Below, in pieces: positions 2,972-45,750 of a DNA stretch of 48,837 nucleotides. Position 1 is the stretch's first letter; each line of letters starts with the position of its first letter. Both the position numbers and the translations under genes were made by a program. The notes below the pieces were generated by a model that made no database searches, was not told the DNA's origin, and saw only the letters and a list, made by a program, of their open reading frames with translations. The stretch spans positions 1 through 48,837 of the forward strand of contig JAIUPL010000037.1 in the NCBI GenBank assembly GCA_020160935.1. Direction: 5' to 3'. This stretch comes from Bacteroidota bacterium (GTDB lineage: Bacteria > Bacteroidota > Bacteroidia > Chitinophagales > Saprospiraceae).

Positions 2972-3211
2972 GAGAGGGTGAGAGATGTGAGAGGGTGAGA
3001 GGGTGAGAGGGTGAGAGAGTGAGAGGGTGAGAGACCGTATAGTCGACCGCTCTGCTCATTGAAACGGTTCTTAACAGATTAAGAGCAAAGCAGTACACTC
3101 TACGTTCTCTCACTCTCTCACACCTCTCACACCTCTCACTCTCTCACACCTCTCACTCTCTCACACCTCTCACCCTCTCACACCTCTCACCCTCTCACCC
3201 TCTCACTCTCT
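2972..3211. repeat. Two-armed inverted tandem-repeat element, copy 1
   Basis: The left arm (2972-3033) is built of GAGAGGGT/GAGAGAGT-type octamers. The right arm (about 3106-3211) is built of the reverse-complement CTCTCACC/CTCTCACT units. The 72-nt core between them (3034-3105) is itself an imperfect inverted repeat with a GTATAGT...ACTCTAC pair and matching GCTCTGCTC/GAGCAAAGC segments. The core is about 90% identical (7 differences by eye) to that of the element at 3778-4006. The right arm ends 4 nt before the start codon at 3216, so no ordinary ribosome-binding site is present. The whole element fills the intergenic region after a predicted promoter. Confidence 0.9.
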
Positions 3212-3215
3212 AAAT

Positions 3216-3779
3216 ATGCTACGTCGCGACGCACTCAAAAAAATATCCCTGCTCTTGGGAGGGCTTTCCATAGCGCCGGAACTGTTGGCGAAGGCGCTGG
3301 CCAATGCTCCGGCCACGCTGGCACAATTTCCTGCCGATCGGCTGGCATTGCTGGCAGAAATGGCAGATACCATTTTGCCAGATACCGATACGCCTGGCGC
3401 CAAAGCGGCCAAAGTGCACGAATTTATTGCCGTGGTGGTACAGGACTGTATGCCGCAGGAAGATGCAGCCCAGTTCTGGACTGAACTCGATGCTACCAAT
3501 GACTTGTGCAAGGCCACACACGGCACCGGCTTTGTGGAATGTACGCCTGCACAGCGGGTTGCATTTTTCACTCAACTGCAATTCGATGCCAAAAAGGCGC
3601 AAGCGGCAGACCCTTCCAGCCGCCCGTTTTTTTATCACTTGAAAAACCTGACCATCGGCGGTTATTTCAGTTCGGAAATCGGGGCTACACAGGCCCTCGC
3701 CTACGACCCTATTCCCGGCGGCTGGATACCGGATATGATTATTGATGAAAAGACGAAGGCGTGGACGCCTATGTTTTAG
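3216..3779 (+). CDS. Gluconate 2-dehydrogenase subunit 3 family protein
   Basis: 187-residue protein with a twin-arginine-like N-terminus (RRDALKK followed by a hydrophobic stretch), suggesting Tat export. The rest resembles the small subunit of membrane-bound gluconate 2-dehydrogenases: ADTILPDTDTPGAK near residue 50, AVVVQDCM, and a late LTIGGYFSSEIG and YDPIPGGW. In that family the small subunit helps export and stabilise the flavoprotein subunit. The next gene encodes a GMC flavoprotein and the one after that a cytochrome c, which supports one electron-transfer complex. The substrate is not determined; gluconate, glucose or another sugar or alcohol are possible. The stop codon TAG at 3777-3779 runs straight into a GAGAGGGT repeat array. 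Confidence 0.85.
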   Translation: MLRRDALKKISLLLGGLSIAPELLAKALANAPATLAQFPADRLALLAEMADTILPDTDTPGAKAAKVHEFIAVVVQDCMPQEDAAQFWTELDATNDLCKATHGTGFVECTPAQRVAFFTQLQFDAKKAQAADPSSRPFFYHLKNLTIGGYFSSEIGATQALAYDPIPGGWIPDMIIDEKTKAWTPMF

Positions 3780-4006
3780 AGGGTGAGAGAGTGAGAGGGT
3801 GAGAGGGTGAGAGGGTGAGAGGGTGAGAGAGTGAGAGAAGTGAGAGACCATATAGTCGACCGCTTTACTCATTGAAACGGTTCTTAAGAGACTAAGAGCA
3901 AAACGGTACACTCTACGTTCTCTCACTCTCTCACTCTCTCACTTCTCTCACCCTCTCACTTCTCTCACCCTCTCACTTCTCTCACCCTCTCACCCTCTCA
4001 CTCTCT
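3778..4006. repeat. Two-armed inverted tandem-repeat element, copy 2
   Basis: Same architecture as the element at 2972-3211. A left GAGAGGGT/GAGAGAGT array (3778-3847) is followed by a 72-nt core (3848-3919) about 90% identical to the first core, then a right CTCTCACC/CTCTCACTT array to 4006. The left arm begins within the stop codon of the subunit-3 gene. The right arm ends 4 nt before the GMC start codon, with ATTT in between. The copy therefore occupies the entire gap between two genes that should be co-transcribed. Confidence 0.9.
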
Positions 4007-4010
4007 ATTT

Positions 4011-5687
4011 ATGAAGCGCAAATACGATGCAATAGTGGTCGGTTCCGGAATCAGCGGAGGCTGGGCGGCCAAGGAACTCTGCGAGAAAGGGCTCAAAACC
4101 CTTGTACTCGAACGCGGGCGCCCGCTGGAGCACATCACCGATTACACAACAGCCATGACCAATGTGTGGGAGTTTCCGCACCACAACTGGCCAACGCAGG
4201 AGGATGTGAAGAAAGATTACCCGATACAGTCGGTATGTTATGCTTTCAATGAAGGTACCCGGCATATGTGGGCTAAAGACAGCGAGCACCCGTACACGCA
4301 AGTCAAGCCATTTGAGTGGATCAAAGGGTATCATGTGGGGGGGAAATCGCTGATGTGGGCCCGCCAGACCTATCGCTGGGCCGAATTTGATTTTGAAAGC
4401 AACCTGAAAGACGGGCACGGGGTCGACTGGCCGATTCGATACCAGGACATTGCGCCGTGGTACAGTTATGTAGAAAAATTTGCCGGCATCAACGGCAACA
4501 AAGACGGGCTGCCGCAGATACCCGATGGCGAGTTTTTGCCACCCATGGAACTGACGATTCTGGAAAAACACCTGCGCGATTCGATACACCGCAATTTTCC
4601 GGGCCGAACCCTGGTCAATGGCCGCAGCGCCAATATCACACAAAGCATTAATGGTCGCACGCCCTGCCAGTACCGCAGTCTGTGCCACCGCGGGTGCCCG
4701 TTTGGCGCGTATTTCAGCAGCAACGGCGTGACCCTGCCCGCTGCCGCCAAAACCGGAAAAATGACCCTGCGGCCGTACAGCATCGTCGAGTCGGTGCTGT
4801 ACGACGAAAAGAAAGGCCGTGCCCGCGGTGTTCGGGTGATCGATGCGCAAACGAAAGAAGTGATCGAATTTGAGGCAAAAATCATTTTCCTGAATGCCGG
4901 CACCCTGCCTACCACGCAAATCCTGCTCAACAGCACAGGAAATCGCTTCCCACACGGCCTGGGCAACGACTCGGGTGTATTGGGCCATTACCTGATGGAC
5001 CACAACTACCGGGCGCGCATGGGCGGCGAATACGAAGGTTTTCAGGATCATTACCACAAAGGGCGGCGTCCGGTAGGATTTTATGTTCCGCGCTTCCGCA
5101 ATTTCGGCAACGACAAACAAACGGCATTTGTACGTGGATACGCTTTTGGCGGCGGCGGCGAACGTGGGCCCGCATTTTATGATGGCGGCGAAGGCTTTGG
5201 CGCCGATTTCAAAACCGCCCTGACCAAACCCGGCAAATGGAGCCTCAGCCTCTTTGGCATGGGCGAATGCCTGCCACATTTCGATAACAAAGTGACGCTG
5301 AACAAGGAAAAACGCGACGCCTGGGGACTACCTACCTTGAATATTGACTGCCAGTGGCGTGAAAATGAAGATGCCATGGTGAAAGATATGCTGCAAACGG
5401 GTCAGGAAATGCTCGAAGCCGCTGGCTTCACCAATATCTGGTCCAATGACTCGCACGAACCGCCCGGCCGCGGCATTCACGAAATGGGCACCGCCCGTAT
5501 GGGCCGCGATCCGAAAACTTCCATGCTGAATGGGCAAAACCAGTTGCATGCAGTACCCAATGTGTTCGTGACGGATGGCTCCTGCATGACTTCCGGTGCT
5601 GCGCAAAACCCGTCCATCACCTACATGGCGCTCACAGCCCGGGCTGTCGATTTTGCTGTTAAAGAATTGAAAAAGAGAAATTTATAG
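4011..5687 (+). CDS. GMC-family FAD-dependent oxidoreductase, dehydrogenase large subunit
   Basis: 558-residue glucose-methanol-choline family flavoprotein. The FAD dinucleotide-binding motif VVGSGISGGWAA is at residues 9-20, and a C-terminal GMC domain carries HEMGTARMG with catalytic His490 and the paired Asn533 in GAAQNPSIT. The C-rich segment CQYRSLCHRGCPFGAYFSS in the middle is typical of gluconate and sorbitol dehydrogenase-like members. It probably oxidises a sugar, sugar acid or alcohol and passes electrons to the cytochrome c encoded 60 bp downstream. The Tat-type subunit encoded upstream could carry it across the membrane, as it has no signal peptide of its own. The start at 4011 places the FAD motif at the usual distance. 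The substrate is unknown. Confidence 0.9.
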   Translation: MKRKYDAIVVGSGISGGWAAKELCEKGLKTLVLERGRPLEHITDYTTAMTNVWEFPHHNWPTQEDVKKDYPIQSVCYAFNEGTRHMWAKDSEHPYTQVKPFEWIKGYHVGGKSLMWARQTYRWAEFDFESNLKDGHGVDWPIRYQDIAPWYSYVEKFAGINGNKDGLPQIPDGEFLPPMELTILEKHLRDSIHRNFPGRTLVNGRSANITQSINGRTPCQYRSLCHRGCPFGAYFSSNGVTLPAAAKTGKMTLRPYSIVESVLYDEKKGRARGVRVIDAQTKEVIEFEAKIIFLNAGTLPTTQILLNSTGNRFPHGLGNDSGVLGHYLMDHNYRARMGGEYEGFQDHYHKGRRPVGFYVPRFRNFGNDKQTAFVRGYAFGGGGERGPAFYDGGEGFGADFKTALTKPGKWSLSLFGMGECLPHFDNKVTLNKEKRDAWGLPTLNIDCQWRENEDAMVKDMLQTGQEMLEAAGFTNIWSNDSHEPPGRGIHEMGTARMGRDPKTSMLNGQNQLHAVPNVFVTDGSCMTSGAAQNPSITYMALTARAVDFAVKELKKRNL

Positions 5688-5747
5688 GGCCAATTCAGGT
5701 CGGACTTCCACAATTTTGCAATAAAATCTTTCATCACCGATTCAAAC

Positions 5748-6074
5748 ATGAAAAAAACTTTAGCATTTCTGCCCCTCTTGTTGCTGTTGGCAGCCTTCAC
5801 ACCGGCTTCCAAACCGGCAGACCCCGAAATTCCTGCTGATGTAAAACCGCTGCTCGAAAAATACGGCTGTGTAGCCTGTCATGCCCTTAACCGCAAATTA
5901 GTTGGTCCGATGTGGACGGATGTGGGCGCCAAAAAATACTCCGCTAAACGTATCATGCAACTTGTTGCCAAACCCGAACCTGCCAACTGGCCGGGTTACC
6001 CGCCTATGGCCGCCCAGAAAGTGCCAAAAGCCGACCTGACGAAAATCGCGAACTGGTTGTCGTCGATGAAGTAA
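5748..6074 (+). CDS. Small monohaem cytochrome c (class I)
   Basis: 108-residue exported protein. The signal peptide is MKKTLAFLPLLLLLAAFTPA, followed by a short mature class I cytochrome c. Haem attachment is by C41-V-A-C44-H45. The likely distal ligand is Met87 in GYPPMAAQ, and the C-terminal helix KADLTKIANWLSSM is typical of c551/c552-type domains. It lies 60 bp after the GMC flavoprotein gene and is probably its electron acceptor, feeding a terminal oxidase or another carrier. Classical gluconate dehydrogenases use a three-haem cytochrome subunit, so a one-haem partner is a simplified form. The stop codon TAA (6072-6074) is directly followed by a long inverted repeat. Confidence 0.88.
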   Translation: MKKTLAFLPLLLLLAAFTPASKPADPEIPADVKPLLEKYGCVACHALNRKLVGPMWTDVGAKKYSAKRIMQLVAKPEPANWPGYPPMAAQKVPKADLTKIANWLSSMK

Positions 6075-6277
6075 TTTTCTTGTGGAGTATTTTCCGTAGA
6101 GTGGTTTCCCGCAGAATTCGCAGATTTTCCCGCAGAACTCGCAGAACGTAGCGTTCACCTATTTCTTCCATGCGATCAAAATGTGTACTCTACGCATACT
6201 CTACGTTCTGCGAGTTCTGCGGGAAAATCTGCGAATTCTGCGGGAAACCACTCTACGGTAAACTACTCTACAGAAAA
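6075..6277. repeat. Long inverted repeat with perfect 56-bp arms
   Basis: Positions 6096-6151 and 6201-6256 are exact reverse complements over 56 nt, and the similarity continues imperfectly outward to 6075 and 6277. The arms contain short internal repeats of the CTGCGGGAAA/TCTGCGAATT kind, bounded by GTAGAGT/ACTCTAC. The 49-nt centre holds the extra copies ACTCTACG at 6186-6193 and 6198-6205. The element starts at the base after the cytochrome c stop codon and leaves 43 nt before the kinase-like start at 6321. It would fold into a very stable hairpin in RNA or cruciform DNA. Confidence 0.92.
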
Positions 6278-6320
6278 ACACCCTACCAGAAACACACCTC
6301 CACGAAATCAAAAGCACTTT

Positions 6321-7118
6321 ATGGCCTACTATCCACCAGAAATTCGAACCGTTCAGGTCACGCGCTACATCGCTCCGCTGCGCGAAGGCGGTTCCTTGCC
6401 GGCGCTCACGGAAGCCGACGACGATTTCAAGTATGTGCTGAAATTTCGTGGCTCGGGCCAGGGCCCTAAAGCCCTGATCGCCGAACTGATTGGTGGTGAA
6501 ATAGCCCGTATCCTGGGCCTGAAAGTACCAGAACTGGTATTTGCCCAACTCGATGAAGCCTACGGACAAACTGAACCCGACGAAGAAATCCAGGATTTGC
6601 TCAAAGCCAGTCGCGGACTCAACCTTGCCCTGCATTTCCTCTCCGGCGCCATCACCTTCGACCCGGCAGCCACCGAGGTAAAACCGGAAGAGGCCTCGCG
6701 CATCGTCTGGCTAGATGCTTTTATCACCAATGTTGATCGGACATTTAAAAACGTAAATCTGCTGGCCTGGCACCGCGATTTGTGGCTCATTGACCATGGC
6801 GCAGCACTGTATTTTCACCACTCCTGGGACAACTGGGAGGCGCAGGCGAAAAGCCCTTTCAGCCTCATTAAAGACCATGTTCTGCTATCAAAAGCAACTA
6901 TGTTGGCCGACACCGATGCAGAATGCCGTACTTTGCTGACGGAAGACAAGATTCGGACGGTGGTAGCGCTCATTCCCGACGCGTGGCTGCAGTGGGACAA
7001 TACCGATCAGACACCCGATGCCTTGCGCGAGGTGTACTGCCAGTTCCTGCTGACGCGCCTGCAACACTCCGATATTTTTACAAAAAAAGCCCAGGATGAA
7101 CGCGAAGCACTTGTATGA
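6321..7118 (+). CDS. HipA-like kinase domain protein (HipA_2 type)
   Basis: 265 residues from the ATG at 6321. Upstream in-frame codons would be translated from the inverted repeat and are rejected. Recognisable are a KYVLKFRGSGQGPKALIAEL segment resembling the ATP-binding lysine region, WLDAFITNVDRTFKNVNLL with a catalytic-loop-like D and N, and LWLIDHGAALYFHH with a metal-binding Asp. These match the minimal HipA-like kinase family that lacks the toxin's N-terminal subdomain. No HipB-like antitoxin is adjacent. Instead the gene overlaps a DUF3037 gene by 23 bp, a recurrent pairing. The role is unknown: a protein or small-molecule kinase is possible, and toxin function should not be assumed. 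Confidence 0.75.
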   Translation: MAYYPPEIRTVQVTRYIAPLREGGSLPALTEADDDFKYVLKFRGSGQGPKALIAELIGGEIARILGLKVPELVFAQLDEAYGQTEPDEEIQDLLKASRGLNLALHFLSGAITFDPAATEVKPEEASRIVWLDAFITNVDRTFKNVNLLAWHRDLWLIDHGAALYFHHSWDNWEAQAKSPFSLIKDHVLLSKATMLADTDAECRTLLTEDKIRTVVALIPDAWLQWDNTDQTPDALREVYCQFLLTRLQHSDIFTKKAQDEREALV

Positions 7119-7479
7119 ATACGCTGTGATCCGGCTGGTTCCAGTGGTAGAACGCGAAGAATTTCTCAACGTGGGCATCATCCTTTTTTGTAAAAAAGCC
7201 GATTATATCAAGGTTTTATATGCCATCGACGAAGAGCGCCTGGAGATTTTTTGCAGCGAACTGGACCTCGAACAAGCCTACAAGAACCTCGAAGCCTTTG
7301 AAAAAATCGCGCTTGGCGCCGAAAACTGCGGCCCCGTCGCACGACTCGATGTACCTTCCCGTTTCCGCTGGCTCACCGCTGTACGGAGTTCGGCTATCCA
7401 AACATCCCGCCCGCATCCCGGCCTGACGGAAGACCTGGAAGGAACGGTAGCAAGGTTGTTTGAGGAGTTGGTGTTATGA
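7096..7479 (+). CDS. DUF3037 domain protein
   Basis: 127-residue protein beginning YEYAVIRLVPVVEREEFLNV, with VGIILFC following: the characteristic start of DUF3037 proteins, which have no known biochemical function. No signal peptide or membrane segment is visible, so it is probably cytoplasmic. It overlaps the HipA-like kinase gene by 23 bp, implying translational coupling and a shared task. The natural hypothesis is that it is a partner, substrate or regulator of the kinase; this is inferred from linkage only. The stop codon TGA (7477-7479) is made by the first unit of the following GAGAGAGT repeat array. Confidence 0.78.
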   Translation: MNAKHLYEYAVIRLVPVVEREEFLNVGIILFCKKADYIKVLYAIDEERLEIFCSELDLEQAYKNLEAFEKIALGAENCGPVARLDVPSRFRWLTAVRSSAIQTSRPHPGLTEDLEGTVARLFEELVL

Positions 7480-7687
7480 GAGAGTGAGAATTCAGAGAGT
7501 GAGAGAGTGAGAAGTCAGAAAGTGAGAGGGTGAGAAAGTGAGAGGGTGAGAGACCGTAGAGTTGACCGCTCCGCCTAAACATTTTTTGGGAGGAGTGGTC
7601 AACTCTACGGTCTCTCACCCTCTCACTTTCTCACCCTCTCACTCTCTGACTTCTCACCCTCTCACTTCTCTCACGTCTCTCACCTCT
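7477..7687. repeat. Two-armed inverted tandem-repeat element, copy 3
   Basis: GAGAG-type arrays of mixed 7-8-nt units form the left arm and CTCTC-type arrays the right arm. Positions 7522-7567 and 7597-7642 are exact reverse complements over 46 nt, including the core GTAGAGTTGACC/GGTCAACTCTAC. Similarity extends further with a few mismatches. The 29-nt centre contains a TTTTTT run. The element separates the convergent DUF3037 gene and RNase P RNA, starts inside the DUF3037 stop codon and ends 6 nt before the rnpB 3' end. It could act as a bidirectional terminator. Confidence 0.92.
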
Positions 7688-7693
7688 AAAAAA

Positions 7694-8078
7694 ACCGCAG
7701 ATCTATAAGCCGGATTCTGTACTTCGTTTTCACAAAGTCTCTGTCATTTATCTGGTTCCGTGCGAAACGGAATCTGCGCTGCCTACCCCCCTTGCCCTCC
7801 TTCGCCGAAGCGAAAAAGGCTGTGCGAGCCGCACATTAACAAGGTGTACATGGCATTTCAACCCGCAAGGTTTATCCCCCGAGGCAGTTGCCTGCTCCGG
7901 TCGTGCGCTCTTACCACACGTTTTCACCCTTACCGCAAGCGGAAAACCGGCATGCGGCGGTAATTTTCTGCGACACTTTCTGTACCCCGCCCAAAAGCGG
8001 AATCCCGTCGGTTAGACGGTGCGGTGCTCTGTGTTGTCCGGACTTTCCTCCCCGAAAGGCGACAGAGCGATCTGCGGC
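7694..8078 (-). ncRNA. rnpB: RNase P RNA (bacterial type A)
   Basis: On the minus strand the 5' part contains GAGGAAAGTCCGGAC, the near-universal RNase P RNA segment, shortly after GCCGCAGATCGC. The 3' part contains AGAATCCGGCTTATAGATC and ends with TGCGGT, which pairs with the 5' end to form helix P1. The roughly 385-nt length fits type A RNAs. This is the catalytic RNA that matures tRNA 5' ends. Open reading frames across this stretch are coincidental. The ends are set by the P1 pairing and could be off by a few bases. Confidence 0.95.
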
Positions 8079-11200: not shown

Positions 11201-11908
11201 CTCGAAACCTCGAAGGTCCAACTTGTCCGCCTCGAACGCGAAGGCGCCTGGCGCGAAATGGCTCGCCAGGTGGCGCACGACATCAAAAACCCGCTGACAA
11301 CCATGAAACTGTCGATGCAGCAACTCGAACGGGTGTCCAACAACCCCGAACAGGCTGCAGCATACCTGCGCAAGGCTATCACTCGCCTGATTGAACAAAT
11401 CGACTCACTGGCACAAATTGCTTCGGAATTCTCCATGTTCGCCAACCTCGATATCCAGGCCAAGAACGATGTGATCATCAATGAAGTGGTGGAAAGTGTT
11501 CACGACCTGTTCAGCGAGCAGAAAAATGTAGACCTGCAATTGACACTTCCGGAACAGCGTTTCCATATTCTGGGCGATAAAAACCACCTGATTCGGGTGT
11601 TTAATAACCTGGTTATCAATGCCATACAGGCTATTCCTTCCGACCGTCGCGGGCACATCCGTGTGTCGCTGATACGCCGTGATAACAGCGTGGTCATTCA
11701 AATCAGCGATAATGGAGGCGGGATTCCCGAGGAAATTGCAGAACGGGTATTTGAGCCCAATTTCACCACCAAAACTTCCGGCAGTGGCCTGGGACTGGCT
11801 ATTTGCAAAAAAATCATTGAAGCCCACGACGGCGATATCCGCTTCGAAACAAGGGAAAATGAGGGAACGGATTTCTTTGTGGAGATTCCTATTTCGGCGA
11901 TCGGGTGA
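8210..11908 (+). CDS. Large multi-pass membrane sensor histidine kinase with HAMP domain
   Basis: 1232-residue kinase. A transmembrane helix at about 5-22 precedes an external segment to about 185. A block of some seven to eight helices follows (about 190-455), then a second external domain to about 705. Further helices lie near 706-730 and 765-785, then a third external segment and a last helix near 925-945. A HAMP linker (RSIVRPISLLSDKV) leads to the dimerisation box VAHDIKNPLTTMK with phospho-acceptor His1023. The ATPase domain shows NNLVINAIQAI, DNGGGIPEE and GSGLGLAICKK. The organisation recalls NtrY-like kinases with an enlarged sensor. No response regulator gene is adjacent, so it is an orphan kinase here. 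The signal is unknown. A predicted promoter lies 78 bp upstream. Confidence 0.88.
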   Translation: MIKRLLLYIVAMFLLLALALSAGQWDKDTTLLQQHAEEISEWLAARESEGLAWGRAHADQPDFWQNQSDEAYTVLLHRQDSMLAWSNTHAIPTGPVLRKIAATPGRSLQQLPLGWFLSNSETRGNNTLTVLIPVRYTLDFNVLDRGTLFPAGRNIDDHIEITHTETPYPIQIEGRPLAWLDASKAVASGWLQWVQLIAYLLFLIVFLGLLNQAAVWLNKKAGALAGTGLLLLTVTALLAWNAATGFTQQQFSALPLFAPAFENAALIGNSVGDWLLHASLLVYVMIFFHRYFDRSGQNQADDQETTEVPQEKSGLKSVLAVFCYFLAMLSIPFSVQAMRELVLHSRLGFDFENILHLGTQGVLALAGVIVLMLGLFLFSHRMLLTVQQLALPLQQRAIAIGVATLMATGLAFPLGLEPLFVAVFALLYAALFDAFVYWKGSGFGWLIAWLLVFSCFASTQLYHYSASKDKELRFQYAGALATDRDTLVENILPDVWNTLQKDSQATGLLMKPWPFKAGAVTMAAHLSEQIFGQAYLFQHYRLRAFAFDRENQPLLLDQSLGYEQVMQKWSQQSASAFSNPNIRIGLDEEGKTRYMLLLSVNRMGDPTQPTRLFVFFDHIFPAPTQVYAQIFYQTPYKNLDRLSFYDFSVEKNGRLLVEQGMTNASVLNTRLENGTSVEIDAGGRLDAVAKSADGSTIATVGRVSGGWLKPIYLFSILFTLASIFMILMAVANSLFGFLPEAYDFRLSTRGSLARRIHMWYVTLLAAAFFVTGFLTYRHFTQAARDNERSDLDYRAETLLNGLKSQLLNARLSDDSIRSTLPQTLRSMSASMGMDANLYGADGKLLFTTQEDLAALGIIPSRMNAEALQTLKSGEQPEEVVGEQVAGVAYNSKYLTVYSDVHKVLGYLGVPYQLSQRKVGVEVSDFLGMLASLYVFLLLIAYAVTLLLARSIVRPISLLSDKVRAVQLTDKNMPLEYAGDAQDEVSELIGQYNRMVDKLETSKVQLVRLEREGAWREMARQVAHDIKNPLTTMKLSMQQLERVSNNPEQAAAYLRKAITRLIEQIDSLAQIASEFSMFANLDIQAKNDVIINEVVESVHDLFSEQKNVDLQLTLPEQRFHILGDKNHLIRVFNNLVINAIQAIPSDRRGHIRVSLIRRDNSVVIQISDNGGGIPEEIAERVFEPNFTTKTSGSGLGLAICKKIIEAHDGDIRFETRENEGTDFFVEIPISAIG

Positions 11909-11920
11909 GATTTGTAGATA

Positions 11921-12107
11921 TTGTTCGGCTTCGCCTCACAGGGGGGATTTGGGATTTTGCGGATCAAGCGGATTTTTGAGATTTTTCCGCCTTCGGCGGT
12001 TTTACACTATAAAAATCAATAAAAAATGGCCGACAGGCCATTAAAAATCCTAAACATCCGCTTGATCCGCAAAATCCCAAATCCCCAAGTGAGGCGAAGC
12101 CGAACAA
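11921..12107. repeat. Long inverted repeat between kinase and DUF1990 genes
   Basis: Positions 11921-11973 and 12056-12107 are nearly exact reverse complements over about 52 nt, differing mainly where the left arm has extra G residues. The arm contains GGATTTGGGATTTTGCGGAT and TTCGGCTTCGCCTCAC. Inside are two small hairpins, CCGCC-TT-CGGCGG near 11989 and ATGGCC-GACA-GGCCAT near 12027, and A/T-rich loops. A further partial GCGAAGCCGAAC copy follows at about 12120. It probably terminates the kinase transcript. It lacks the GTAGAGT core of the other elements. Confidence 0.85.
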
Positions 12108-17430: not shown

Positions 17431-18906
17431 ATGGGAAAAAACGTGATAGTCATAGGGTCAGGATTTGCAGGGCTTTCTGCCGCCTGCAACCTGGCTGCGG
17501 CAGGTTTCAAGGTTACGATATTAGAAAAAAATGACTCCCCCGGCGGTCGGGCACGCCAGTTCCGAGCAGAAGGTTTTACATTCGATATGGGACCTTCGTG
17601 GTACTGGATGCCCGACGTTTTTGAACAATTCTTTGCACGATTTGGTAAAAAAGTATCCGATTACTACGAATTGAAGCGCCTGGATCCTTCCTACGCTGTC
17701 ATTTTCGGCGATGGCGATACAATGAAAGTGCCGGCGGCCATGCCGGAACTGGAAGCCATGTTTGAGCGCTACGAACCAGGCAGTGCTGCCAAATTGCGCC
17801 ATTTCCTGAAAGAAGCGGCCTACAAATACCGGGTAGGCATGACCGAGTTTGTACACAAGCCCAGCAACAGCATCCTGGAATTTGCCGACCTGCGCATACT
17901 GTCCAGCATGTTTCGCTTGCAAATGTTTTCGCCGGTTTCCAAACAGGTAAGAAGCCTGTTTCGCAACAAAAAACTGGTCGACCTGCTCGAATTCCCCGTT
18001 CTGTTTCTGGGCGCCACGCCCGAAAAAACACCTGCGCTCTACAGCCTGATGAACTATGCCGACATGGCGCTCGGCACCTGGTATCCCATGGGGGGCATGT
18101 ACAAGATCATCGAGGCCATGGTGTCGCTCGCTGAAGAGCTGGGTGTGGAATTAAAAATGAACGAAGAAGTGGTGCGGATACACACTTCCGAGGGGCGCGC
18201 TACCCGTGTTTTGACCAAACAGGGATATAGTTACACGACCGACGTCGTGATCGGCGGGGCCGATTACCACCATATCGAAAGCAGTTTGCTGGATGCGCCT
18301 GCCCGAAATTATTCGAAAAACTACTGGGAAAAACGCACCATGGCGCCTTCCTGCCTGTTGTGGTACCTGGGTGTCGGCAAACGCCTCGAGCGGCTCCATC
18401 ACCACAACCTGTTCTTCGACGAAGATTTTGGCTTGCATGCACAGGAGATTTATGAAGACCCCAAGTGGCCAAGTCGCCCCTTGTTTTACGTCAGTGCGCC
18501 CTCTGTGACCGACCCATCCGTTGCGCCGGAAGGCTGTGAAAACCTGTTTGTTCTGATTCCGGTAGCACCCGGGCTGGACGACACGCCAGAGGTGCGCGAA
18601 CGCTACTACAATATGGTTATGGAAAGGCTGGAAAAGTATGTGGGCGAGTCTGTTCGCGATGCTGTGGTGTACCAGCGATCCTATGCTCATGCCGACTTTG
18701 TTCAAGACTACCATGCTTTCAAAGGCAATGCCTACGGACTGGCTAATACGCTTTTGCAAACTGCTTTTTTAAAACCCAAAATGAGAAATCGGAAGGTGGA
18801 CAACCTCTATTACACCGGGCAACTCACGGTTCCGGGGCCCGGTGTACCACCTTCACTCATCAGCGGACAAGTGGTGGCCTCCGAAGTCGCCCGCCGCTTC
18901 GGCTAA
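17431..18906 (+). CDS. crtI: Phytoene desaturase
   Basis: 491 residues from the ATG at 17431; an earlier in-frame TTG is rejected. The FAD-binding motif [20 protein letters not shown] is near the N-terminus, followed by a second conserved stretch, [20 protein letters not shown]. The C-terminal signature is [20 protein letters not shown]. CrtI-type desaturases convert colourless phytoene to lycopene or neurosporene at the membrane. It is followed 39 bp later by crtB, which makes phytoene, so the pair supplies the carotenoid backbone. Genes for cyclisation, ketolation or hydroxylation are not in the window. The gap to crtB is filled by a one-armed CTCTCACC repeat. Confidence 0.93.
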
Positions 18907-35396: not shown

Positions 35397-35754
35397 ATGA
35401 TTATAAAAAATTCTTCCTCTCCTGGCTGGCTGCTGCTGTGGGCACATTCGTTTTCAATGGCCTTTTCCACGGGCTTTTGGCTGCTGATTTCTTCGATAGA
35501 AACAACGCTGCACTCGGAAGCGCCGCTGGATACTGTTCCGGGTGGGCGCCAATGGGCCAACTCTGAAAGAAGCCCTCAGCATCGGCGCTTTGTTTCACTT
35601 CTCTACTGCCATGACCTGGAATCTGGCCAATATGGCAAGTTTCGTTTCCTGGCCTCTGGCATTGGTTGCCGGCGATTCACTCTGGCATGTGCTGATGGGG
35701 TTGCTGGCGGGATGGCTGATTTACAAAACGGGCTTTCAAAGGAGCAAGATTTGA
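35397..35754 (+). pseudogene. Frameshifted small membrane protein gene
   Basis: Reading from the ATG at 35397 gives MIIKN and then an unrelated frame. Adding one A to the six-A run (35405-35410) gives MIIKKFFLSWLAAAVGTFVF and continues to about 35535 as a hydrophobic chain. A second frame change near the GGGTGGG at 35540-35546 is needed to join the C-terminal part, GANGPTLKEALSIGALFHFS to YKTGFQRSKI. Three or so helices are visible in the rebuilt chain; no family was recognised. The stop codon TGA is provided by the following 31-nt palindrome (AAG ATT TGA). Confidence 0.65.
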
Positions 35755-35874
35755 CAACTTTTGGAAAGTTGTCAAATCTGAGTTCATGCGAGATCAAGAT
35801 TTGACAACTTTCCAAAAGTTGTCAAATCTGAGTCCGTGTGAGAGATTTGACAACTTTTCAAAAGTTGTCAAATC
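35748..35874. repeat. Three 31-nt palindromes (loops TGG, CCA, TCA)
   Basis: Copies lie at 35748-35778, 35798-35828 and 35844-35874. Each has the same 14-nt arms, GATTTGACAACTTT and its reverse complement, around a different 3-nt loop. The spacings are 50 and 46 nt with similar but not identical linkers (TGAGTTCATGCGAGATCAA, TGAGTCCGTGTGAGA). They lie between the broken membrane gene and the DNA methyltransferase gene. Confidence 0.95.
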
Positions 35875-35924: not shown

Positions 35925-36686
35925 ATGTTCAACCGAATTTACAATGAAGACTGTATTGCCGGTATGGCGCGGCATTTGCCGGATCGATGCATTGATCTGG
36001 TGATAACCGACCCGCCTTTTGGCATCGATTTTCAGGCTGCCAAGGCCAATTACAACCGTAAAGAGCAGCATGTCCTGAAAGGGTACAATGAAATTCCCGG
36101 TGGCGATTACCTCATCTTTACCCGCGACTGGCTCACACAGGTAAAACGGGTGCTCAAACCCGACGGTAGTCTCTACATTTTTTCCGGCTGGAATTACCTC
36201 AAGGAAATCCTGATCGTACTCGACGAACTGCAGATGCCTCTGGTCAATCACCTGATCTGGAAATACCAGTTCGGGCTGGTCACGACCCGTAAATACGTGA
36301 CCTCGCATTATCATGTCCTGTTCGCCGGGATCGATGAAAAAAAGCGCCGCTTTTACCCGTATGCCCGTTTTGAAAAAGACGACAAACACCCCGAAGGCGG
36401 CAGCGCGCATTACAAAGACAAGGAAGATGTGTGGACCATCCCACGCGAATACTGGAACGGCGATGTAAAAACACCCACCAAACTCCCCTCCGAAATCATT
36501 CGTAAAATACTGGCATACAGTAGTTTACCTGGCGATGTGGTACTCGATCCATTCCTCGGCTCCGGCCAAACGGCTGTTGTTAGCCATCTGGAAGGCCGGC
36601 AGTATGTGGGCTTTGAAATCGTGCCCGAGTATTATGGTTTTGCGAAAGAGCGGCTGGAAAGCGGGAAGTACCGAATAAAGTCCTGA
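35925..36686 (+). CDS. DNA methyltransferase (adenine-N6/cytosine-N4, beta type), orphan
   Basis: 253 residues. The catalytic motif DPPF (residues 29-32, after LVITD) precedes the AdoMet-binding motif DPFLGSGQT near residue 208, the order of the beta class of amino-methyltransferases. Other features are VKRVLKPDGSLYIFSGWNYL and the C-terminal GFEIVPEYYGFAKERL. No restriction endonuclease or specificity gene is adjacent, so it is an orphan; the recognition site is unknown. Its last codons, AAG TCC TGA, are encoded by an inverted repeat arm, so the protein ends K-S because of the repeat. Confidence 0.88.
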   Translation: MFNRIYNEDCIAGMARHLPDRCIDLVITDPPFGIDFQAAKANYNRKEQHVLKGYNEIPGGDYLIFTRDWLTQVKRVLKPDGSLYIFSGWNYLKEILIVLDELQMPLVNHLIWKYQFGLVTTRKYVTSHYHVLFAGIDEKKRRFYPYARFEKDDKHPEGGSAHYKDKEDVWTIPREYWNGDVKTPTKLPSEIIRKILAYSSLPGDVVLDPFLGSGQTAVVSHLEGRQYVGFEIVPEYYGFAKERLESGKYRIKS

Positions 36687-36813
36687 GTCGTAAGTCCTGA
36701 GTCCTGAGTCCGTAGAGTACACGTTGTTACCCTTGAGGTTCATGAAAATTATTGCCAAGGGTAATAATGTGTACTCTACGGACTCAGGACTCAGGACTTA
36801 CGACTCAGGACTT
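36678..36813. repeat. Symmetric inverted TCCTGAG element between convergent genes
   Basis: Positions 36678-36722 and 36769-36813 are exact reverse complements over 45 nt. The arms are made of TCCTGAGTCGTAAG-like repeats and end with GTAGAGTACAC/GTGTACTCTAC. The interior also pairs (TTACCCTTG near 36727 with CAAGGGTAA near 36756). It separates the methyltransferase (plus) and the decarboxylase (minus). Both genes take their final codons AAG TCC TGA from opposite ends of this element. It probably serves as a bidirectional terminator. Confidence 0.95.
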
Positions 36814-44631: not shown

Positions 44632-44644
44632 TTCCATTGAGAAT

Positions 44645-44879
44645 GATTTGACAACTTTTCGAAAGTTGTCAAATCTAATACAGGCATAGTGACCAAGATT
44701 TGACAACTTTTCGAAAGTTGTCAAATCTAATGCAGGCATAGTAACCAAGATTTGACAACTTTTCGAAAGTTGTCAAATCTAATGCAGGCAGTGACCAAGA
44801 TTTGACAACTTTTCAAAAGTTGTCAAATCTAATGCAGGCAGTGACCAAGATTTGACAACTTTTCAAAAGTTGTCAAATC
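44645..44879. repeat. Five-copy array of the 31-nt palindrome
   Basis: Copies start at 44645, 44697, 44749, 44799 and 44849, so spacings are 52, 52, 50 and 50 nt. All have identical 14-nt arms, GATTTGACAACTTT and its reverse complement. The 3-nt loops are TCG, TCG, TCG, TCA and TCA. The linkers are near-identical (TAATGCAGGCATAGTAACCAA or shorter), so the array grew by tandem duplication of the palindrome with its linker. The copy at 44849-44879 abuts sucD, whose stop codon TGA overlaps its edge. Confidence 0.97.
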
Positions 44880-45750
44880 ACTTCATCAGTCGCGCGATCG
44901 TTGCACCGATCTGTGCTGGAGATTCTACTACCTCTATACCGTTTTCGGAAAGAATGCGCATTTTAGCCGCTGCTGTGTCGTCGGCGCCGCCTACGATGGC
45001 ACCGGCGTGGCCCATTTTGCGGCCTTTGGGCGCCGTTTGGCCGGCGATAAAACCTACAACGGGTTTGCGGTTGCCATTGGCGCTGATCCAGCGGGCTGCT
45101 TCTGCTTCGAGGCCGCCGCCGATTTCACCGATCATCACGATGCCCTCTGTTTCGGGGTCGTTCATAAACAGTTCGACCGCCTGGCGTGTAGTGGTGCCGA
45201 TGATTGGGTCGCCTCCGATACCGATGGCCGTGCTTATACCGAGGCCGGCTTTGGCAATCTGGTCGGCTGCTTCGTAGGTCAATGTGCCTGATTTGGAAAC
45301 CAGGCCGATGGGACCGCGTTTGAAAACAAAGCCAGGCATGATACCCACTTTTGCTTCATCTGGTGTGATGATACCCGGACAGTTTGGCCCGATCAGGGTA
45401 ACGCCTTTCAAATCGACATAGGCTTTGGCGCGCACCATGTCCTGCACGGGAATGCCTTCCGTGATGGCTACAATGACTTTAATGCCAGCAGACGCCGCTT
45501 CGATGATCGCATCGCCGGCGTAGGCGGGTGGAACAAAAATGATGCTGGTATCGGCGCCTGCCTTGACGACAGCGTCTTCCACGGTATTAAAAACCGGACG
45601 GTCGAGGTGCATTTGCCCGCCTTTGCCGGGCGTCACACCGCCTACTACGTTGGTGCCGTAGGCGATCATTTGTTCAGCGTGAAAAGTGCCTTCTTTACCT
45701 GTAAATCCCTGTACGATGATACGGGAATGTTTATTTACTAAAATGGACAT
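44878..45750 (-). CDS. sucD: Succinate-CoA ligase alpha subunit
   Basis: 290 residues. Visible are the CoA-binding Rossmann region near [15 protein letters not shown], the conserved [25 protein letters not shown], and the active phosphohistidine His248 in [11 protein letters not shown]. It forms succinyl-CoA synthetase with SucC in the TCA cycle. The sucC gene is not next to it, so the beta subunit is encoded elsewhere. The length is normal. Its final AAG TGA is followed by palindrome sequence, with the stop codon overlapping the repeat edge. Confidence 0.95.

Follow-up and report, generated by a model that had tools for sequence, protein, structure and literature searches.

A family of intergenic palindromic repeats is described here from a 48,837-nt stretch of Saprospiraceae DNA (contig JAIUPL010000037.1, assembly GCA_020160935.1; the whole stretch is called the window) and from related genomes. 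An element consists of a central hairpin, the core, bounded by the tag GTAGAGT and its complement ACTCTAC, and of two reverse-complementary arms built of short tandem units. Pairing persists through sequence change, the sites are kept between species, the cores at orthologous sites have lost their similarity, and variants private to one element are mirrored in its opposite arm. On balance, and with some reservation, we believe that this is a non-coding family kept paired by copying from arm to arm and overwritten by other palindromes. Arm-to-arm copying is our best inference for the source of the arm complementarity; overwriting of the sites by other palindromes is likely.

Results

Pairing is kept while the sequence changes

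The window's own genome (G000; 5.84 Mb in 51 contigs) and its relatives, which are Saprospiraceae (five of those used here are metagenome assemblies), were searched for GTAGAGT followed after 5-65 nt by ACTCTAC, with the reversed motif as the control. The own genome holds 228 such places (a few share one end) against 0 for the control, far beyond the five loci on which the first-pass annotation of this DNA had based its proposal of a modular element. The core is 44-69 nt long in 79 of 81 elements. The arm units, judged by eye, measure about 7-12 nt; the main types are GTGAGAG, AGTCCTG and CGCAGAACT/CTGCGGG, and the relatives have CACATAG, CACGAGG, GTGAAAAGTG, AGTGCGAAGTC and others. Arm type and core type are mostly coupled in the own genome, where AGTCCTG arms enclose cores of 66-69 nt, CGCAGA arms cores of about 45-57 nt and GTGAGAG arms cores mostly of 53-60 nt (67 nt in the window elements 2972-3211 and 3778-4006, 78 nt at locus L012). 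At locus L079 of the relative G028, GTGAGAG-type arms are joined to an AGTCCTG-type core.

Among places picked by the exact tag in eight genomes, 76 of 105 have a paired arm of at least 20 nt (41 of 47 in the own genome), with arm identities of 0.95 (G000, G028) and 0.88-0.89 (G006, G031). In the 81 elements of G000 and G028, which were selected with a pairing requirement beside the tag and extended by a procedure that skips unpaired regions, the Watson-Crick share is 95.1% for arm pairs (n = 3066) and 96.5% for stem pairs (n = 1600). Compensatory change is strong: across 19 AGTCCTG-type cores, 15 of the 31 pairs are altered on both sides, and not one of 500 shuffles matches the cores in any of five measures. 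This alignment (A1) contains 68-nt cores only, 13 from the own genome and six of the seven from G028, L079 being excluded for its arms. The tag is invariant in the alignments by construction of the search, which likewise required the facing complement ACTCTAC; when one or two tag mismatches are allowed, GTAGCGT or ACGCTAC stands on at least one side in 4 of 17 G028 orthologues and on both sides in 2.

Orthologous sites carry dissimilar cores

The comparison with G028 (BLAST blocks of at least 250 nt only) started from 38 own elements; 2 lacked enough flank, and of the remaining 36, 18 could not be anchored on both sides in the G028 DNA compared. An element is present in G028 at 17 of the 18 comparable sites, with flanks about 86% identical. 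Assembly collapse, which the first-pass annotation had named as a possible source of the arms, is therefore unlikely, as the relative was assembled independently. The inner cores of orthologues are 0.678 identical, against 0.673 for permuted partners (sd 0.008, p 0.30), and the loops 0.490 against 0.518. Given that the same two genomes agree at 0.698 of third codon positions (39,256 sites) and at 0.857 of aligned intergenic DNA, the lack of any extra similarity between orthologous cores suggests replacement rather than drift alone. In a syntenic cluster of five elements (C20 in G000, C143 in G028) the identity is 0.852 and 0.828 within the two species (10 pairs each) and 0.685 between orthologues, so the cluster has been homogenised within each species.

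Private variants and flanking DNA are mirrored

Private 12-nt words are mirrored in the element's own opposite arm in 33 of 135 elements. Under a looser limit of two elements per word, used because the control needs it, mirroring is found in 43 of 135 elements and in 19 of 2679 mismatched left/right flanks. At locus L060 the pairing runs about 25 nt beyond the arm into flanking DNA, where G000 and G028 differ by a three-base change that is identical on both sides (GACG/CGTC vs GGTA/TACC). No open reading frame (ORF) of at least 60 aa ends in this mirrored flank, and the neighbouring ORF 17924-18556 is on the other strand. Flanking DNA is mirrored at locus L057 too. Substitutions alone would be mirrored by selection or by copying; the mirrored flanks in two loci go further. 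On the gene-sense strand of elements in tandem gaps, the mismatches comprise 27 G.T and 41 A.C (p 0.11).

The five elements of the window

The elements are listed below by position; no strand is assigned to any of them.

2972..3211, palindromic element, GTGAGAG-type arms; core 3037-3103 (GTATAGT..ACTCTAC)
3778..4006, palindromic element, GTGAGAG-type arms; core 3850-3916 (ATATAGT..ACTCTAC)
6075..6277, palindromic element, CGCAGAACT/CTGCGGGAAA arms
7477..7687, palindromic element, GTGAGAG-type arms; core 7556-7608
36678..36813, palindromic element, AGTCCTG heptad arms; core 36712-36779

All five lie where the first-pass annotation had placed them and have reverse-complementary arms. Arm pairing among them reaches 82 nt at 94%, 65 nt at 97% and 60 nt at 97%; at 2972 and 3778 it is broken into shorter blocks. 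Two details of the earlier description need amendment. It gave GTATAGT as the degenerate side of the core in the first two elements, which is right for the first, the second having ATATAGT. For 6075-6277 it placed GTAGAGT/ACTCTAC at or near the centre or the arm boundary; this is the outer pair (6096-6102 with 6250-6256), and the inner pair is GTAGCGT/ACTCTAC (6148-6154 with 6198-6204). The window contains 11 copies of GTAGAGT where 1.75 are expected, and none of 100 shuffles has 11 or more.

The first element terminates immediately 5' of the ATG at 3216, and its site carries a GTAGAGT-type element in G028, G016 and G031 as well. The second starts within the stop codon of ORF 3216-3779 and ends immediately 5' of the ATG at 4011. 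The site of the third has a GTAGAGT-type element in G028, a different palindrome in G016 and none in G031 (15 nt). The fourth begins in the TGA of ORF 7096-7479 and ends next to the RNase P RNA gene (7690-8078, minus strand); G028 has an orthologous element with a different core. The fifth, which is row 1 of alignment A1, sits between convergent genes.

The window also holds palindromes of other kinds. One at 11921-12107 is long, with GGATTTGGGATTTTGCGGATCAAG arms and an outer TTCGGCTTCGCCTCA, and is without GTAGAGT; a similar palindrome fills positions 11646-11838 of C17c in G000, and at that place G028 carries a GTAGCGT element of the CGCAGA type. At 35747-35874 and 44644-44880, short palindromes of the AGATTTGACAACTTTTnnAAAGTTGTCAAATCT kind form arrays.

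Other palindromes occupy the same sites in relatives

Nine own sites were compared with up to six relatives, a palindrome being counted at a score of at least 15. A palindrome was present in 25 of 29 comparisons, 11 of them with a GTAGAGT, ACTCTAC or GTAGCGT word and 14 without; when G028 is left out the count is 17 of 21, with 13 of the 17 lacking the word. Element-free gaps of the same two stretches gave 6 of 40 (5 of 31 without G028), a difference with Fisher p of 3e-9 and 7e-6, respectively, the comparisons at one site being mutually non-independent. The clearest site, L053:16795, lies upstream of an EF-G-type gene (Pfam) and shows five arm families in six species, the arms in G009 being only 15 nt. 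Conserved non-coding DNA 5' of this gene covers L053 16640-16936, and a near repeat, TTCACCAAACnAAnTTCTT, flanks the hairpin site there on both sides.

At the window gap 3778-4006 (the GMC gap), GTGAGAG arms are found in G028, G016 and G031 around three different centres, which with the own genome makes four species. G022 has 14 nt between the anchors and no palindrome, and in G009 an S23 gene lies between arms of another type.

The first-pass annotation had proposed that the outer repeat is exchanged while the core and the position are kept. That sequence is exchanged while the position is kept is borne out by the five arm families at L053:16795 and by the palindromes in 25 of 29 comparisons. 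The proposed direction of exchange is only partly borne out: at 3778-4006 the arms are kept and the centres differ, and cores turn over between close relatives. Different arms at one site, together with different centres within the same arms, mean that both arms and cores are exchanged.

Position relative to genes

By element centre, all 77 elements with two neighbours are intergenic, as the first-pass annotation expected, with gene ends taken from a simple caller based on codon usage; a further 4 are at the edge of a sequence. Their gaps are convergent in 33 cases, tandem in 36 and divergent in 8, against 112, 365 and 92 of all 569 gaps. Among flanking gene ends, 61 of 102 3' ends come within 45 nt of the core, as do 3 of 52 5' ends.

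Distribution

Among the 36 relatives of the same genus, five have 175, 48, 19, 19 and 5 places; all remaining ones of the 59 relatives searched have 0-2, and the controls range over 0-3. The genome with 5 places (G012) is a doubtful carrier, with 1 control place and a paired arm of at least 20 nt in 1 of the 5. A stricter pattern applied to 296 genomes of the phylum, in which no other member of the genus was sampled, matched in 2 only: 154 times in the own genome and once in another, with unpaired inner bases. The GTAGAGT family is thus confined so far to some genomes of one genus and is patchy within it.

Palindromes with exact arms of 16 nt number 98 in 464 kb of G000 stretches and 53 in 244 kb of G028 stretches; judged by their centres, 96 and 52 of them, respectively, are intergenic. 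Most of these stretches were picked because they contain known copies, which biases the densities upward. A GTAG[AC]GT word is present in about half of the palindromes; the remainder belong to other arm families.

Origins from phages and plasmids were considered and rejected. A pattern scan of viral contigs gave 11 stretches with no tandem arms in 60 bases on either side; 10 of them have the same core (on either strand) and near-identical flanks, and the 11th differs. A plasmid search with a 136-base query (E 1e-3, low-complexity filter on) gave no match. The family is not described among the open-licence papers listed by literature searches on the arm and core words, Saprospiraceae palindromes and long inverted repeats, nor among those listed for four-helix-bundle proteins with repeats, REPIN/RAYT and template switching.

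Discussion

Proposed mechanism

We presume that during replication the nascent strand may fold at the hairpin and copy one arm into the other, as in template switching or quasipalindrome correction. Copying of this kind would mirror changes, indels and adjacent DNA, and the arms would be complementary without selection for an RNA. Ectopic gene conversion from other palindromes might in addition overwrite whole arms and cores, or a new palindrome might be inserted into the loop of an old one; a site so overwritten would stay a hairpin while its sequence is replaced. In the cited part of PMC8794818 template switching is described for RNA genes, and it fits the imperfect palindromes found here. 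In both cases several bases can be mirrored in a single event, which keeps the stem perfect. The hairpins treated in that part are RNA genes, whereas ours are many dispersed intergenic palindromes with mirrored flanks in two loci.

Several points weigh against this interpretation. Neither a switch event nor an intermediate was directly observed. The paired arm is shorter than 20 nt in 29 of the 105 places picked by exact tag alone, and the pairing percentages lean high because of the selection for pairing and the skipping of unpaired regions. The divergence of the cores may in part be ordinary drift under a pairing constraint, third codon positions being only 0.698 identical. Homogenisation is seen in the C20/C143 cluster only: other G000 pairs less than 10 kb apart are 0.661 identical (10 pairs) against 0.638 for distant ones, and other G028 pairs 0.638 (4 pairs) against 0.684. 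The control gaps of the site comparison are unmatched for gap type and orientation, and 4 of the 29 comparisons have no palindrome. The test of G.T against A.C is small (68 mismatches, p 0.11).

Functional RNA or DNA cruciforms as alternatives

The elements might instead be functional RNA hairpins, acting as terminators, as protectors of 3' ends or as sites for RNase III, in which pairing is under selection and the sequence drifts freely. The crowding of gene 3' ends near the core (61 of 102, against 3 of 52 5' ends), the preference for convergent gaps (33 of 77 elements, 112 of 569 gaps), the persistence of hairpins at the sites in several species and the strong covariation would all suit this explanation. 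However, wobble pairs are not in excess on the gene strand (27 G.T, 41 A.C), and mirrored private words and mirrored flanks are hard to reach by selection on single changes. GTAGAGT-type places are at background counts in 31 of the 36 other genomes of the genus, and no Rfam family scores above its gathering score on the window elements; with Rfam 15, only the RNase P RNA (7690-8078) does so in the window. Loci L053 and L360 gave 25 Rfam matches (23 microRNA-precursor families, one sRNA and one leader), all below gathering scores. We therefore consider RNA function unlikely as the main explanation, though it keeps some weight: taken together, the mirrored private variants, the mirrored flanks and the lack of a G.T excess speak for template switching rather than for selection on RNA. 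A further possibility is selection on DNA cruciforms, in which a G.T bias would equally be missing.

S23/IVP genes

The elements could also be ORF-less members of a wider class of palindromes, whose full members carry a gene for an S23/IVP four-helix-bundle protein that aids their spread. PF05635 (S23/IVP) has 4-11 matches in each of ten genomes of the genus and none in 14 control genomes. Inverted repeats of at least 14 nt surround 33 of 45 S23 loci of the genus (18 of 25 and 15 of 20, from the ten genomes); none of 90 control intervals taken from these loci and none of 30 GMC loci is so placed. These 45 loci are drawn from 75 PF05635 matches; in one set 5 of 30 loci were left uncounted (four near contig ends, one of odd length), and the 20 further regions were scored with one gene each, although L299 holds two. 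Tandem units stand on both sides at 12 of 26 S23 loci, against 0 of 24 GMC loci in the genus and 0 of 72 elsewhere, and on at least one side at 23 of 26, 9 of 24 and 3 of 72, respectively. At L178 and its orthologue L162, an S23 gene (PF05635) lies between two complete AGTCCTG/GTAGAGT elements in both species; the arms of the S23 locus L301 include GTAGAGT, and in the GMC gap of G009 the S23 gene lies between the arms.

Several observations argue against this explanation, which we regard as doubtful. Outside the genus inverted repeats are found at 3 of 30 S23 loci and tandem units on both sides at none, so S23 can do without the arms. Among the 33 repeats, some measure only 14-16 nt and some are not tandem, and one-sided tandem units occur at 9 of 24 GMC loci of the genus as well. 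Most GTAGAGT elements have no S23 gene, and those examined carry no such ORF in the core. We also know of no mechanism of movement for S23 elements. The link between S23 genes and inverted repeats in the genus is an association only, and serves as a lead.

S23 proteins occur in intervening sequences of 23S rRNA, according to the cited part of PMC4990558. The two systems are alike in that complementary ends form a stem there and an S23-type ORF is present in some palindromes here; the elements studied here differ from those treated in that part in being intergenic and mostly ORF-less. A more speculative notion, to which we assign a low probability, is that of "sequence-free" elements, in which the position of the hairpin would outlive its sequence through recopying of arms and overwriting, with S23/IVP as a trans-acting partner.

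REP-like elements, RAYTs and MITEs

Mobilisation of the elements as REPINs or GTAG-REPs (REP, repetitive extragenic palindromic sequence) by a REP-associated tyrosine transposase (RAYT, a Y1 tyrosine transposase) appears improbable. In its favour, the GTAGAGT tag starts with GTAG, as does the tag in other bacteria, the copies are extragenic and often downstream of genes, as for GTAG-REPs, and the own genome has two Y1_Tnp genes. GTAG-tagged REPs, and REP dimers within larger palindromes, are reported in the cited part of PMC3733652. The first-pass annotation had suggested looking for a linked transposase of this type, and none was found: 0 of 21 Y1_Tnp loci have a flanking element within about 1.5 kb on each side (less at contig ends) in six genomes taken as carriers, which include the weak carrier G012; L113 has one lone GTAGAGT word. 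Y1_Tnp is present in 33 of 41 genomes of the genus, in no obvious relation to the number of elements (by inspection). A transposase may act in trans, so the missing linkage is no proof against mobilisation.

The structure of a REPIN doublet is rejected, as the half-cores fold no better than shuffled sequences (-1.10 vs -1.17 kcal/mol, 162 halves). Among features of GTAG-REPs and REPINs, the GTAG tetranucleotide at the core end (228 places, 0 reversed), the extragenic location and the bias to gene 3' ends are found here; an unpaired tag beside a stem-loop of 20-40 bp is not, the tag facing ACTCTAC, as the search required. So far as the cited part of PMC3733652 goes, the likeness to the GTAG-REP superfamily and REP dimers extends to the tag, the high copy number, the extragenic position, the downstream and convergent bias and dimers inside palindromes. 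Unlike them, the elements have GTAG paired in a hairpin mostly of 44-69 nt, arms of tandem units, no RAYT linkage found and sequences that turn over at kept sites. With the REPINs in the cited part of PMC3116915 they share inverted units in one hairpin and many copies per genome; unlike these, their half-units do not fold alone and no cognate RAYT was found. As for miniature inverted-repeat transposable elements (MITEs), the arms are inverted and short element-free sites exist in G022 (14 nt) and G031 (15 nt), which are other species and not strains. In its way of life the family resembles a REP or MITE population, yet it departs from REPs and REPINs in the paired tag, the half-units that do not fold and the RAYT linkage, which was not found.

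Some Y1_Tnp genes have palindromes of their own nearby. The second such gene, at L017, is flanked by GTAGTTGGCGAGGACGCCAACTAC and ATTGTTGGCGTCCTCGCCAACAAT palindromes (1271-1409 and 2066-2217) and is likely to form a separate RAYT/REP pair with them. A long palindrome (L016 1290-1356) lies immediately upstream of the first Y1_Tnp gene.

Chance similarity or an assembly artefact has a negligible probability: several contigs do end at or near an element, as repeats break assemblies, but there are 0 reversed-control places, independent assemblies agree on the sites, and the changes are compensatory.

Conclusions

In related species the same intergenic spots usually keep a hairpin with a different sequence, which suggests repeated copying of one arm from the other. 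The family provides hundreds of natural palindromes in which selection for pairing can be separated from mechanical arm-to-arm copying, and it bears on the long-standing question of how long stems remain perfect. Strong covariation, commonly read as proof of a functional RNA, could arise from copying at the DNA level. In the genus, S23/IVP genes are frequently enclosed by inverted repeats, which is a testable lead on a widespread protein family of unknown function.

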